From contig JAIQGG010000004.1 of assembly GCA_020072785.1 (NCBI GenBank), positions 238,108 through 302,107 on the forward strand: 64,000 bases of DNA, read 5' to 3'. The stretch comes from Terriglobia bacterium (GTDB lineage: Bacteria > Acidobacteriota > Terriglobia > Acidiferrales > UBA7541). Positions 38,571 through 45,765 of the stretch are shown piece after piece. The position numbers and the translations under genes were made by a program. Position 1 is the stretch's first letter, and the number at the start of each line of letters is the position of its first letter. The notes below the pieces were generated by a model that saw only the letters and a program-made list of their open reading frames with translations, had not been told where the DNA came from and ran no database searches.

Positions 38571-40382
<1,812 letters not shown>

Positions 40383-40526: not shown

Positions 40527-40535
40527 CGAGAAGCG
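40527..40535. repeat. left target-site duplication of the R-M element
   Basis: CGAGAAGCG next to the left inverted repeat. The same bases recur at the right end from 42935 (CGAGAAGCG). Depending on where the inverted repeat is cut, the direct repeat is 8 bp (GAGAAGCG) to 10 bp. Confidence 0.75.
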
Positions 40536-40559
40536 GGTAGTGGTGTCATTTGAAATTGT
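40536..40559 (+). repeat. left terminal inverted repeat of the R-M element
   Basis: GGTAGTGGTGTCA followed by TTTGAAATTGT. It pairs with 42912-42935, 23 of 24 positions matching. Both repeats are followed inward by a GCC-containing stretch, but similarity ends there. Confidence 0.82.
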
Positions 40560-40758
40560 AGCCTAAACGATCTCCAAAGAGGGCTCTGGGGCTTTGCCCA
40601 ATTATGGAAATAGCTACCCGCAGTGAAAATGAGTTGGGTACGCTCTCCTACAAGTAACCGAGTGCTGCCAGCAGCCCAAAGCCCTCGCGGAGTTTAACCC
40701 TATCAGCCGTAATTATGGCCTGTAGCTATCGGTTGCAATCATGGCTTTTATTAGTCGT

Positions 40759-41877
40759 TCATTTCTTCTCAATCAAAAAGAGGAATTCCCTGTTTGGAGT
40801 TTCGGCTTCTCGAATCCATTCGTTTGTCCATCTCATTTCCGCCATCACGTTCTTCTTGTAATCAACTTCCACCAAGTTGATAAGCTTACCGGTTGTCTTA
40901 ATCACACCATTCAGTTCATCAGCGGTCGCCCGTCCCCCTGAACTATATGAGAGAAGAATGTGCTTCGCCTTAGTCTCTCGCAAAAGCTTTTCTATGGCTT
41001 CAACGACAATGAATCGCCCACTCTTTCCGCGTCGAAACTCTTCAAATTGGGAAGCCGCGACGGTGTCCCTTGAATCCGCTCTACGCCTAACCTTGCCAAA
41101 AAGACGGGGGTTGTCAAAAAGGCAAATAGATGTCCACAAATGGTAATAGGCCGCATAGCGTATTCTCGAGGGGGGCATCTTTTCATTGCTTGACCCGTAG
41201 GGAGGGTCAAAATAGGCTAGGTCTGCTTCCGTGTCCGCAATCAGGTCAAAAATGTCTTGTTGATATACGGCGTGATCGTTCTTTTTGGGGATGATTCTAG
41301 GGACTCTTAAGACTAAGGGTTTGTACGAACGCGGGGACCATTCCTTAAGATACGACGCATAATGCCCAAGCGTGCTGTCAACTTCGTCTAACGCAAGAAT
41401 GAGACTTGTAATTGCAACTGCTCGTTCCACTTCGCAAAGAAGGAGGTGTTCGATTTCGTCTCTGATTGCATCTGCCTTCCTCGTGTTACGTCGTTGCCAC
41501 GGGTGCTTTAGTCCATTCGCGTTGTGTAAGTCTCCCCCATAGTGTTCCGTCAGCCATCCGTCTTTACCTTCAAGGCTGTTCAAATGAGCTATCAGTTTTT
41601 CATATTGAGAAGGTCGGTGTTCACCCAACAAATAGCAAGTCCCGAAGAAGCGCGACCACACAGCCACATCGTTACAAATCACGGAATATCCAAGCTGTGC
41701 CAAAGCTTGTGAAACACGGGTTGTTCCGGAAAAACCGTCTAACACAGTTCTTGGCTTTACGCTTGCAATCAGGTCCAAGATGTGAGGGAGTAGTTTTAGT
41801 TTTGAACCCGTGTACTTGATTCCTTCGGTCTCGGGGCATCGAACGGAGGCATCATCGAAAAGCGGGAGGGTCGCCAT
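40759..41877 (-). CDS. D12-class adenine-specific DNA methyltransferase
   Basis: N6-adenine methyltransferase (372 aa) of the alpha (Dam-like) order. Motif X is KYTGSKLKLLPHI (21-33), motif I VLDGFSGTTRVS (45-56) and catalytic motif IV DPPY at 224-227. The target recognition region lies between motifs I and IV, with a long tail after it. It starts 1 nt after the stop of the putative restriction gene, so the pair is one operon. It would protect host DNA from the partner enzyme; the target sequence cannot be read from the sequence. Confidence 0.9.
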   Translation of the reverse strand: MATLPLFDDASVRCPETEGIKYTGSKLKLLPHILDLIASVKPRTVLDGFSGTTRVSQALAQLGYSVICNDVAVWSRFFGTCYLLGEHRPSQYEKLIAHLNSLEGKDGWLTEHYGGDLHNANGLKHPWQRRNTRKADAIRDEIEHLLLCEVERAVAITSLILALDEVDSTLGHYASYLKEWSPRSYKPLVLRVPRIIPKKNDHAVYQQDIFDLIADTEADLAYFDPPYGSSNEKMPPSRIRYAAYYHLWTSICLFDNPRLFGKVRRRADSRDTVAASQFEEFRRGKSGRFIVVEAIEKLLRETKAKHILLSYSSGGRATADELNGVIKTTGKLINLVEVDYKKNVMAEMRWTNEWIREAETPNREFLFLIEKK

Positions 41878-41878
41878 G

Positions 41879-42766
41879 CTACTTCAATACTCCCTTTTTC
41901 TGCTTTTCTATGTCTTCTTTTAGTTTCTCCAAAGCACTTTCATGCCCCTTGTCCGTCGCTACAAGGGCATGGGAAAACAGCTTTACGAGTACGAGGTTAT
42001 GCGAATAGTCGATCCATCCGTTTGTAACGCTGTCGAAATAGGCCAGTCCATTTTTCGTGTGTGTCCACAGTCCTCGTTGCAAAGCATTCGCTGTGGTGCC
42101 TCCATACCTCACCTCGCAGATATAATTTCCCTTTCCATCGTAGAAACGATAAACGGGATGCTTGCGGCCATGCCCTTCTTCCTCATACTTGATTAGCGAT
42201 ATAGCGTTCCTCGCTTTTTGGTAATCGAATACGAGGATATTGCATCTTTGCTTCGTTTCGTTGTAAATCAAAGGCAGTACATTAATCTTCCAAAAATCAG
42301 CGAAAGCGGCGCTCTCTAAAATCTCTCCGATAGCCTTTTTATCTGCAACCTTTTGCCCGTGCTTCTTCAACGTTGTGAACATTTCGGAATTCTTGTCCGT
42401 GGACAACTGCAACGGGCCATCACCATAAGCCTTAAGGCTGATGGGAAATTCGGCTTTCGTCACTTCGTTAATCACCTTAATATCTTCTTCATGCTCCTTC
42501 GCCCTAAACATGTCCTTCCCAACATGCACGGATTTGAAGTCGTACATAAACTGGTTTATGAACTCCGAGATTCCGATTTCCGCGAGGTCACCGTGCGTCT
42601 TGTTGCCAATCAGCCGCATTGTGAAAATGTTGCTCAAAGTGACCGTGATGAGATTCGGATTCTTGCCAATAAGGAGGCGGAGGCGTTTGATGAAATCTTC
42701 AAAAGCCTTCTTGCTTTCGACAAGAGATTTCTTGGGTTCCATTGGGTCCGGCGGCAAAATTACCAT
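41879..42766 (-). CDS. putative type II restriction endonuclease
   Basis: A 295-aa protein encoded directly upstream of the methyltransferase (1-nt gap), with the same low G+C. It has no membrane segment and is not similar to any family I recognise. A segment at about 105-123 (AEFPISLKAYGDGPLQLST) looks like the Lys-bearing core strand of PD-(D/E)xK nucleases; acidic candidates precede it (YDFKSVHVGKD, about 75-85). Identification rests mainly on the partnership with the methyltransferase. Start at ATG 42766, or ATG 42742. Confidence 0.65.
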   Translation of the reverse strand: MVILPPDPMEPKKSLVESKKAFEDFIKRLRLLIGKNPNLITVTLSNIFTMRLIGNKTHGDLAEIGISEFINQFMYDFKSVHVGKDMFRAKEHEEDIKVINEVTKAEFPISLKAYGDGPLQLSTDKNSEMFTTLKKHGQKVADKKAIGEILESAAFADFWKINVLPLIYNETKQRCNILVFDYQKARNAISLIKYEEEGHGRKHPVYRFYDGKGNYICEVRYGGTTANALQRGLWTHTKNGLAYFDSVTNGWIDYSHNLVLVKLFSHALVATDKGHESALEKLKEDIEKQKKGVLK

Positions 42767-42911
42767 AGTTCTTCTACGCGCGCATCTATGATCTCATGAT
42801 GGTGGTGCGGGTGGGCTTCATTCCAGATGGGTCGACCAAATGCAATAAGGTAACCTAAAACCAATAAAGCGCAGCAAGTTAAGTTCCGAGTACCGCGACT
42901 ATTCGGCTCTA
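42767..42911. other. leader region of the R-M operon inside the element
   Basis: About 145 bp of low-G+C DNA between the right inverted repeat and the restriction gene start. It must hold the operon promoter on the minus strand. No controller-protein gene or controller-box pair was recognised. Confidence 0.4.
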
Positions 42912-42935
42912 ACAATTTCAAGTGACACCACTACC
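42912..42935 (-). repeat. right terminal inverted repeat of the R-M element
   Basis: ACAATTTCAAGTGACACC followed by ACTACC, the reverse complement of the left repeat with one mismatch. GAGAAGCG (42936-42943) follows directly as the right copy of the direct repeat. Confidence 0.82.
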
Positions 42936-42960
42936 GAGAAGCGGGGCGGGAGCGGAGGAA

Positions 42961-42989
42961 AGAAAAAGCCCGCCCTCTGAAGAGGGCGG
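42961..42989 (-). terminator. CCGCCCTC hairpin, terminator-like on the minus strand
   Basis: CCGCCCTC-TGAA-GAGGGCGG (42970-42989). On the minus strand it is followed by GCTTTTTCTTT, the form of an intrinsic terminator. A related GGCGGC-GGAAA-GCCGCC hairpin is at about 43150-43166, so this may also be a dispersed repeat. Both lie just outside the mobile element. Confidence 0.45.
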
Positions 42990-43188
42990 CTACAAGGGTT
43001 GGTAGAAGGGGCGGGAACGGGGGCGGGACGGTGGCGCATACTACATCGCGGCGGAGGGGCGGTTTTGCCCGCTCCGGGGTGGCGGAGTATAGTTGGGAGG
43101 TTCCGTTCGCGCGCCGGGCGGCCAGCGGCCGGCGGCGCGCTCCGCAGTGGCGGCGGAAAGCCGCCTCTACAGAAGGCAACCCGTTTCG

Positions 43189-45765
43189 ATGGCCGTAGAC
43201 GTCAGCAAACATCTGGACCGCGCCAAGAGGTGCCTCGAGAAAAATCGCGTCGAGGAAGCCATCGAGGCGTATCAGGCGGTCCTGAACGAGGCGCCCAACC
43301 ACCAGGAAGCGACCCAGGCGCTGGGGGACCTCTATGCCCGGCTGGAGAAGCCGGAGCGCGCGGCGTTTTATTACGGCCTGCTCTTCGACCTGCTGGTGGA
43401 CGGGCGCGACGAGACCAAGGCCCTGGCCATCTACAACCGCTTTCTGAAGCCCTCCTCGGCGCAACATCCCCCCGAACGCATCGCGCGCTACGCCTTTCTG
43501 CTGCAGAAGCAGAACCGCGCGGAAGAGGCCATCGAGCAGTTCACCCGCGCCGCCGATCTGTTCACCACGGGGCGGCGCGAAGAAGACGCGCTCTTCTGCT
43601 TTGAGCGCATCGCGCAGCTGGATCCCGAGAATCTTCCCCGGCAGTTGCGCCTGGCAGAAAGCGCGGAGCGCATCGGCAAGAATGCCATCGCGGTGCGCGC
43701 GTTTCTGCGCGCCGGGCAGCTGGCCTCCGCCACCGGCGCCGAAGAGGACGCCCTAAAGCTGCTGGGCCGCGCCTACCAACTGGCTCCCAACGAGCGCAGC
43801 GTGGCCCTGTTGTATGCCGAAGCCAAGCTGCGGGTGGGAGCGGCGGGGGAGGCTGCGGCGCTGCTGGAGCCCTTCTCCGTTTCCGAGAATGACGACGCAT
43901 TTCTGGAGACGTTCGGGGACGCGCTGATGAAGGCCGGGCAGCTGGACCGCGCGCGCAGCGTTTTCGAGCGGCTGAGCAAGGAAAAAGAAAAGAACGGAGC
44001 CATAGCGCGCCTGTTCGATCTAGCCGACCGCTATGCGGGGGCCAAGGAAGAGGCCAAGGCCGTCGATCTCCTGCAGGCCGTGAAGCGCAAGATGTTCGCG
44101 GCGCGGGCCCAGAACGAGTTCGCCGCGCAACTGGATGCGGTGGCCGAGCGGCATCCCGATTCGCTGCCGATCCTGGAGTTCTGGGCCGCGCTGTACAACG
44201 AAATCAACCGGGAATCCAAATACTTCGAGATCCTGCTGCGCCTGTTCGATCTGTATCTGAACGGCGGCGACGTGCAGAAGGCCCGGGAGTCGCTGGAGCG
44301 GCTGGTGGATATCGACGCCTACGACTACCGGAATCAGGAACGGCTGGAGCGCCTGCGCGGGCACATCGACAATGCGGCTCTAAAGACCCTGGCCGCGCGC
44401 CTGGCCAGCACCACTTCATCCCTGGCCCCGGCGACGGACGGCAGTTCCTCCGGGGGGCCGGCACAGCAAGCGCTCTCTTCCGGCGGCCGCACGCAACAGA
44501 CGCTCGAAGATCTGATCGTGCAGACGGAGATCTTCATTCAGTATTCGCTGCAGAACAAAGCCGTGGAACAGCTGCAGAAAATCGCGGCCCTGTTTCCCGG
44601 GGAGGAAGAAAACAACGCGCGGCTGCGCGGGCTGTACGAGAGCGCCAACTGGTGGCCATCGGGAGGGCCCAGGGTCAAGGCGGAAGTGGCGGCCATGCCG
44701 GTAGGGTCTGGCGAGGGGGTCACGGTTACCGGCAGGACCGGCATCTACAGCGCGGAGACGCTGCGCGACCTGACGAAGATCACCGAAGTCACGCAGAAGA
44801 TCTACCGGCAGCAGACGCCGCGGGCCATGCTGAGCACGGCGGTCAACGAGGCCGGGACGTATCTGCGTACGGCGCGTTGCTTTGCGGTGATCGGCGCGCC
44901 CGGGCGCGCACCGGAGATGGCCGCGGAGTATTGTGCGCAAGGGATCAAGGCGGCTCCCGGGGCGCAGGTGGTTTTCCTGATCGCGCAAATGGAAAAGGCC
45001 ACCCCCGACGCCCTGGGCGGACTGATCATCGAGGCCGAGCCGGGCTCCATCCTGGTGGAACTGGGGCTGACGACGGCCCTCGGCGTGGTGCTGACGGACA
45101 AAGAGACCCAGGTGCCCGCGGGCATGCTGATCGTGGCGCACGCAGAGGCGCACCAGTGGAAGCCCAACGAGACGTATTTCCTGCAGGCCATCGGGGACCA
45201 GATGCTGATGAGCGTCAGCCACACGCGGCTGCGTTCGCTGGTGCGGCGCATGGGGGTTTCCGACGAGCGCACCGGGCTGCTCAGCCGCACCTCCTATCAG
45301 GGCTGCCTGCTCTCCGAAGCGGATCGCGCGCGGAGCCAGGGCACGGCGCTGTCCATGACCATCCTGCAGATTGACCGCGGCGCGGAGATCCTGCGGCAAC
45401 AGGGGGAATCCCCGCTGGAACGCTATCTGGAGCAGTTGACCCGCTCGCTGCAGCCCATCGTGCGGCACAACGATGTAGCCGTGAAATACACGGCGTGGTC
45501 ACTGGCGTTCATTCTGCCGGACACCGCGCTTCCCGGGGCGCGCAACCTGGCCGACAAGCTGCGCCGGGCCGCAGCCGCGGTGCGCCCGCCGTGGGATGGC
45601 GCGCCCTTGACGATGAGCGCCGCGATTGTGGAAGCCGTGCCGCGGCCGGAGTACGACAGCGAGGATATCGTCACGGATTTGATCAACCGCGCCGAATTTT
45701 CCCTGGAAGAGGCGCGGAAGCGGGGCGGCGACGCCGTCGTGGCCCCGGACACACCCAAACCCTAA
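43189..45765 (+). CDS. TPR protein with GAF domain and degenerate GGDEF domain
   Basis: An 858-aa cytoplasmic protein. TPR-like helices cover about 1-400 (EEAIEAYQAVLNEAPNHQEATQALGDLYARLEKPERAAFYY). A low-complexity Ser/Gly linker and another helical repeat follow, then a GAF-like domain (about 560-690) and a C-terminal diguanylate-cyclase fold. In the last, the GGDEF loop is replaced by TAWSL (KYTAWSLAFILPDT, near 767), so cyclase activity is unlikely. It may be a signalling scaffold. ATG 43189 is the first codon of the TPR region; upstream frame is repeat DNA. Confidence 0.8.
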   Translation: MAVDVSKHLDRAKRCLEKNRVEEAIEAYQAVLNEAPNHQEATQALGDLYARLEKPERAAFYYGLLFDLLVDGRDETKALAIYNRFLKPSSAQHPPERIARYAFLLQKQNRAEEAIEQFTRAADLFTTGRREEDALFCFERIAQLDPENLPRQLRLAESAERIGKNAIAVRAFLRAGQLASATGAEEDALKLLGRAYQLAPNERSVALLYAEAKLRVGAAGEAAALLEPFSVSENDDAFLETFGDALMKAGQLDRARSVFERLSKEKEKNGAIARLFDLADRYAGAKEEAKAVDLLQAVKRKMFAARAQNEFAAQLDAVAERHPDSLPILEFWAALYNEINRESKYFEILLRLFDLYLNGGDVQKARESLERLVDIDAYDYRNQERLERLRGHIDNAALKTLAARLASTTSSLAPATDGSSSGGPAQQALSSGGRTQQTLEDLIVQTEIFIQYSLQNKAVEQLQKIAALFPGEEENNARLRGLYESANWWPSGGPRVKAEVAAMPVGSGEGVTVTGRTGIYSAETLRDLTKITEVTQKIYRQQTPRAMLSTAVNEAGTYLRTARCFAVIGAPGRAPEMAAEYCAQGIKAAPGAQVVFLIAQMEKATPDALGGLIIEAEPGSILVELGLTTALGVVLTDKETQVPAGMLIVAHAEAHQWKPNETYFLQAIGDQMLMSVSHTRLRSLVRRMGVSDERTGLLSRTSYQGCLLSEADRARSQGTALSMTILQIDRGAEILRQQGESPLERYLEQLTRSLQPIVRHNDVAVKYTAWSLAFILPDTALPGARNLADKLRRAAAAVRPPWDGAPLTMSAAIVEAVPRPEYDSEDIVTDLINRAEFSLEEARKRGGDAVVAPDTPKP

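Follow-up and report, generated by a model that had tools for sequence, protein, structure and literature searches.

A restriction-modification pair between IS1-related ends: a probable mobile insertion cassette without a transposase in a Terriglobia bacterium

Mobile insertion cassettes (MICs) such as MIC231 of Bacillus cereus and mic-qnrD consist of two inverted repeats that enclose cargo in the place of a transposase gene and are accompanied by a target duplication (PMC3913671). MIC231A1 was reported to be mobilized in trans by the IS231A transposase (PMC3913671). Restriction-modification (R-M) systems spread widely, and some of them move as repeat-bounded units without a visible mobility gene. 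Units with a short target duplication and imperfect terminal repeats were described by Furuta, Abe and Kobayashi (2010), as summarized in PMC3874152, and laboratory work has demonstrated that R-M genes can move in connection with IS elements (PMC3031569). Transporter IS, which carry passenger genes, and the relation between IS1 and IS1595 are the subject of Siguier, Gagnevin and Chandler (2009), as cited in PMC3129680. MICs moved in trans, IS with passengers, and R-M units bounded by terminal repeats are thus already known. What is new here is the link between an R-M cassette and an IS1-related, defence-carrying family; no description of an R-M unit assigned to an IS1-related passenger-carrying family was found in the open-paper literature.

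The locus is a block of 2,400 bp at positions 40536 to 42935 of a 64,000-nucleotide stretch of DNA, referred to below as the window. Its parts, in window coordinates, are the following.

40528..40535, no strand: left target-site duplication GAGAAGCG; the empty site of the congener G214 has a single copy, GGGGAGCG
40536..40559, plus strand: left terminal inverted repeat GGTAGTGGTGTCATTTGAAATTGT (GGTAGTG-N6-TTTGAAATT)
40560..40758, no strand: left subterminal non-coding stretch; no match among 398 other class genomes
40759..41877, minus strand: predicted type II DNA adenine methyltransferase (M) of the D12 class, 372 aa, with the motifs DGFSGTTRVSQALAQLG and DPPYGS
41879..42766, minus strand: predicted type II restriction endonuclease (R), 295 aa, PADLOC type II REase 1.3e-132
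42767..42911, no strand: right subterminal non-coding stretch, lying upstream of R
42912..42935, minus strand: right terminal inverted repeat, inward reading GGTAGTGGTGTCACTTGAAATTGT
42936..42943, no strand: right target-site duplication GAGAAGCG

The original prediction, made from the DNA letters, had named inverted repeats, a direct repeat of 8 bp with a shiftable edge, a low-G+C interior, and a cargo limited to a D12 methyltransferase and a probable restriction enzyme, and all of these were borne out. The 24-bp inverted repeats are complementary at 23 of 24 positions, which lies beyond all 500 shuffles of the region: no pair of at least 20 bp with one mismatch arose, and the longest reached 17. 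The direct repeat is exact over 8 bp, a match that at fixed edges has a chance of about 8e-5 at the local composition. The word common to both block edges is CGAGAAGCGGG (11 bp): each copy of GAGAAGCG has C before it and GG after it, which leaves the edge ambiguous by up to three bases. G+C is 0.45-0.49 in the block versus 0.60-0.68 outside (about 47% versus 65%). The two genes are one base apart and have matches in Pfam or PADLOC, the margins beyond them are only 145-199 bp, and a search of the 2,400-bp block for a transposase or its remnant found none (best match E 0.19). The block is also not a composite transposon with two IS copies flanking the cargo, as its sides have the 24-bp ends alone in common, and its duplication of 8-11 bp is not the approximately 100-bp duplication of the long-duplication type of R-M insertion.

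With MIC231 and mic-qnrD the block shares the two inverted repeats, the target duplication, and cargo where a transposase would be (PMC3913671). It differs in having IS1-related ends, an 8-bp duplication, and R-M cargo, whereas MIC231 has IS231 ends and mic-qnrD a 2-bp duplication, and in that movement in trans was reported for MIC231A1 but would be deduced here from the ends. The units of Furuta et al. likewise combine an R-M pair with inverted repeats, a short duplication, and no transposase; judged by the summary through which they are known here, the block is set apart by ends that can be traced to a transposase family separate from the R-M genes. Like the transporter IS, as far as the citing paper presents them, the family described below has passengers between IS ends and an IS1-like transposase. 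Unlike them, the window block has no transposase, and the related clade scores below the NCBIfam IS1 equivalog cutoff.

The block lies between the divergent genes lepA (38571-40382, minus strand) and a TPR/GGDEF-like gene (about 43189-45765, plus strand; its function was read by eye). Its flanks, joined with one copy of the direct repeat, were searched against 36 genomes of the genus; genome searches throughout this work covered samples, not complete sets. Removal of the block and one direct repeat rebuilds a continuous G+C-rich lepA upstream region, as the original prediction stated, and in G214, whose flanks are approximately 95% identical, the DNA runs through the joined flanks with one target copy. 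The block is therefore an insertion with target duplication. The expected single copy is present, but as GGGGAGCG it is identical to GAGAAGCG at only 6/8 positions, a difference that plausibly reflects drift at approximately 95% identity. The R gene was sought in 298 other genomes of the class and found in none, and within the genomes sampled the insertion is confined to the host species. A REP-like short palindrome, GCCCGCCCTCTGAAGAGGGCGGCTACAAGGG, is located at 42960-43005, some 25 bp beyond the right duplication; the G214 empty site lacks it, and members of the genus have many copies.

The methyltransferase matches Pfam MethyltransfD12 (1.5e-21) and the PADLOC type II MTase model (2.5e-152). 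The endonuclease has no match in Pfam. D95...S110-x-K112, which is invariant in 34 homologues, is a candidate PD-(D/E)XK site, and a fold search returned weak PD-(D/E)XK-type matches to R.SwaI, Hjc, and HinP1I (E about 0.01). From the adjacent endonuclease and methyltransferase genes, which belong to known families and are both open, the cargo is predicted to be a full type II R-M operon in the order R, M. Relatives of the pair were detected at 45 loci (one genome per species scanned), with 55-81% identity over the best-matching segment. These loci come from Verrucomicrobiota, Planctomycetota, Proteobacteria, Spirochaetes, Patescibacteria, Bacteroidota, and others. The gene order is R then M in every homologous locus with both genes on the contig. 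The closest full-length relatives belong to other groups than the host, namely a gammaproteobacterial MAG (73%) and Limisphaerales and Puniceicoccales MAGs (72%), and two acidobacterial relatives have 60% identity. Plasmid and phage collections yielded no relatives of the R protein.

Among the 39 R-M loci with both flanks, the window locus alone has terminal repeats and an 8-bp duplication. It reaches an inverted-repeat score of 19/20 and a duplication of 8/8, compared with at most 14/20 for 120 mismatched flank pairs, and such ends were found at none of the 38 testable homologous loci. The repeats are therefore not part of the R-M unit, and foreign ends have captured the R-M pair. The original prediction had held that R-M relatives without edge repeats would count against it; the 38 loci are just such relatives, but what they show is capture of the pair by the ends, which does not speak against a transposition. 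In 22 R-M-bearing genomes, the first 13 bases of the end occur at chance level.

Some of the homologous loci have repeats of other kinds. L028 (Parcubacteria) was considered as a second inverted-repeat R-M case and rejected, as it sits between copies of a dispersed repeat of about 30 copies, through which alone it scores 15/20. These flanking copies (L028 4766-4943 and 7025-7205) are inverted, and the 162-bp repeat has inverted repeats, TTGAATTATGA, as its own ends. The R homologues of L029 (5001-5870) and L028 (5001-5837) each have a single TAG in an otherwise open frame, and the M gene of L028 is open. The R-M relative in L026, a deltaproteobacterial MAG, is bounded by unique 81-bp inverted repeats (78/81, at 5-85 and 2424-2504), the contig starting 4 bp outside them.

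Within the host genome, the opening 13-mer of the end occurs twice with at most one mismatch, namely at the two block ends. A Pfam PF03400 search detected no IS1-related transposase there, the clade being scored modestly by that model. When the edges of the element were used as a query against 399 genomes of the class, matches over the opening 20-28 bases of the end turned up at six sites. These lie in five further genomes from the genus and family, and every match but one begins at position 1 of the end (same end over 20-21 bp: G289, G1091, G256, G106 at two sites, and G138). One G106 element, 3,012 bp long, has both ends and is flanked by a perfect 8-bp duplication (CGCAGCGG). It contains the C-terminal piece of a decayed IS1-related transposase, with 64% identity to a Mesorhizobium loti transposase. 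Transposase pieces also adjoin the end in G1091 and at the other G106 site; the end in G047 has a frameshifted transposase beside it. The edge query was more sensitive than a 20-mer end search of 396 phylum genomes, which gave 7 matches in relatives versus 5 control matches and overall looked like chance; its G047 match is real because of the adjoining transposase. In viral contigs the exact 20-mer had no match, and shorter versions gave unpaired matches only. These searches revealed no intact transposase whose end is identical to that of the window block. The element in G138 (L199, 8442-9093) is 652 bp long with one perfect end, one end with four mismatches, and a duplication of 6/8, and its single ORF has a sub-threshold match to Mrr-type endonucleases; it may perhaps be a second transposase-less cassette with nuclease cargo. 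At L195 (8466 inward) and L197 (9361 inward), the end is followed by a proteasome-family (PF00227) gene and then by a transposase remnant, and such a gene may perhaps be one passenger type of the family in the host's class.

The G106 piece resembles plasmid-encoded proteins of Mesorhizobium, Acidiphilium, and Hoeflea that are annotated as IS1 family transposase; further homologues occur in Methylocapsa and Methylobacterium. With 29-44 bits, the full-length transposases exceed the Pfam IS1 (PF03400) cutoff of 24.1. Their best NCBIfam match is also IS1, but at 59-67 of 100 bits it stays under the equivalog cutoff; the transposases therefore form a divergent IS1-related clade. The plasmid elements end in GGTAGTGGGTCAGTTTGAAATT, GGTAGTGTCTCAGTTTGAAATT, or near variants, and exact 8-bp duplications flank 3 of the 4 with both ends found. 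A scan of IMG/VR with four transposases delivered 80 loci on contigs classed as viral (L219-L298). Paired ends (at least 15/20) and duplications of 7-8/8 were observed at 49 of the 78 testable loci, the elements measuring 1.3-5.6 kb around a 0.9-kb transposase gene. The original prediction had looked to a DDE element with the same ends. None was found in the host genome, and the IS1-related transposases next to these ends in relatives are decayed; dozens of complete elements of the family share the bipartite end and the 8-bp duplications.

The 31 tabulated ends read GGTAGTG, six variable bases, and TTTGAA(A)TT; positions 1-3, 6-7, 14, and 16-18 are invariant, and positions 4-5, 15, and 19 are nearly so. 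The window end (GGTAGTG-N6-TTTGAAATT) has the commonest base at all of these positions with the same spacing, and its alignment exceeds all 5,000 shuffles for 4 of the 5 IS1-related elements tested. Because its six middle bases are GTGTCA versus nnTCAG in the commonest form, it is uncertain whether the plasmid-borne transposases would recognize it. Classical E. coli IS1 has ends that also begin with GGT and a homologous DDE transposase (PF03400), but its ends align to the window end no better than chance. To our knowledge, classical IS1 carries no passengers. An IS1 reference stretch, L143, extends into an annotated secretion-effector gene on an enterobacterial plasmid; it belonged to the loci of one local search and contributes nothing to the evidence given here. 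The window block thus has the end pattern and the 8-bp duplication of the passenger-carrying family; as it encodes no transposase, it is filed as a non-autonomous relative and not as a member IS.

We consider it probable that the block is a mobile insertion cassette that carries an R-M pair and owes its movement to an IS1-related transposase acting in trans. Its two terminal inverted repeats surround cargo with no transposase gene, a target-site duplication and an empty site attest the insertion, and its ends match an autonomous transposon family. The original prediction called the block MITE-like; mobile insertion cassette is the better name. In the proposed mechanism, a transposase of the IS1-related clade, supplied by another element in the donor or in a former state of the host lineage, would recognize and act on the 24-bp ends. 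It would then have inserted the cassette into the region between the divergent lepA and TPR/GGDEF-like genes and duplicated 8 bp of target. Although unable to move alone, the cassette would be kept because post-segregational killing by the R-M pair would resist its loss. Against movement in trans stands the result of the PF03400 and 13-mer searches, which revealed no present-day partner in the host; an intact IS1-related transposase gene with the ends GGTAGTGGTGTCATTTGAAA would be such a partner.

The main rival holds that a complete IS1-related element with an R-M passenger was inserted and subsequently lost its transposase by internal deletion, and the ends and the chemistry are identical under both readings. 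Complete family members do carry DNA methyltransferases, including a methyltransferase-endonuclease fusion beside the transposase, and G106 shows a transposase that has decayed while the ends around it are intact. The window block, however, retains no trace of a transposase, and R and M fill it to within its short margins, so that we regard a deletion derivative as rather unlikely. The ends might also stem from another family with 8-bp duplications, such as IS1595 or IS6. IS1595 is related to IS1 and its duplications are likewise 8 bp long, and beside their NCBIfam IS1 matches the transposases have weak scores for IS6 and IS1595. No IS1595 transposase (PF12762) is present in the host genome, though, and the few repeat pairs found to flank IS1595 transposases in the phylum to which a Spartobacteria locus belongs differ from the window ends; the block was accordingly not assigned to IS1595. 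With the IS1-related clade matching the window end at fixed spacing, an origin from either family seems very improbable.

A self-moving R-M system, with the inverted repeats as part of the R-M unit, would be in line with PMC3874152, which reports R-M units that have imperfect terminal repeats and are flanked by short target duplications. This reading is largely refuted and extremely improbable, since the homologous loci with both flanks are without such ends and the same ends occur elsewhere without this R-M pair. R-M genes are also known to integrate by other routes, for example IS-linked cointegration (PMC3031569), and the repeats could then be chance repeats around DNA that entered by another kind of recombination. 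This has next to no likelihood: the shuffle, mismatched-flank, and composition controls speak against it, the clean G214 empty site with its single target copy refutes it, and the ends match the IS1-related family.

Beyond the window, we tentatively propose, with some doubt, that the IS1-related family, which would be widespread, may specialize in carrying defence and addiction genes (R-M, solitary methyltransferases, and RmrA-type and PD-Lambda-2-type modules) and give rise to transposase-less cassettes moved in trans, the window block among them. If true, this would explain the travel of naked R-M units with terminal repeats. As the repeats of the window block can be assigned to a transposase family, movement in trans becomes testable with named ends and transposases. 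The IS1-related family, with R-M, toxin-antitoxin, and other defence genes among its passengers, is a small-scale counterpart to the Tn7-like transposons, for which defence cargo is reported (PMC8649781).

The passengers were surveyed in 74 ORFs scanned from the complete elements. Pfam matches comprise helix-turn-helix (10), IrrE-like peptidase (10), P63C (6), Panacea antitoxin (3), and DNA methylase (2) domains, along with AbiEii-like AAA, Abi_2, and NYN. PADLOC identified PD-Lambda-2_B in 8, RmrA in 6, and type II methyltransferases in 2, compared with at most 4 weak matches to four models among 74 control ORFs taken from these contigs beyond the element boundaries. Should the 8, 6, and 2 matches all fall on different proteins, the comparison is 16 versus about 3 (Fisher p 0.002), and if only the ten surely disjoint passengers are counted, p is 0.08; the enrichment of defence genes among the passengers, on contigs classed as viral, is thus suggestive. 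Of the two DNA methylases, the one in L268 is a solitary type II methyltransferase, and the one in L220 is a 540-aa methyltransferase fused to an Mrr-type endonuclease domain. L224 and L244 are further examples of passenger-carrying IMG/VR elements.
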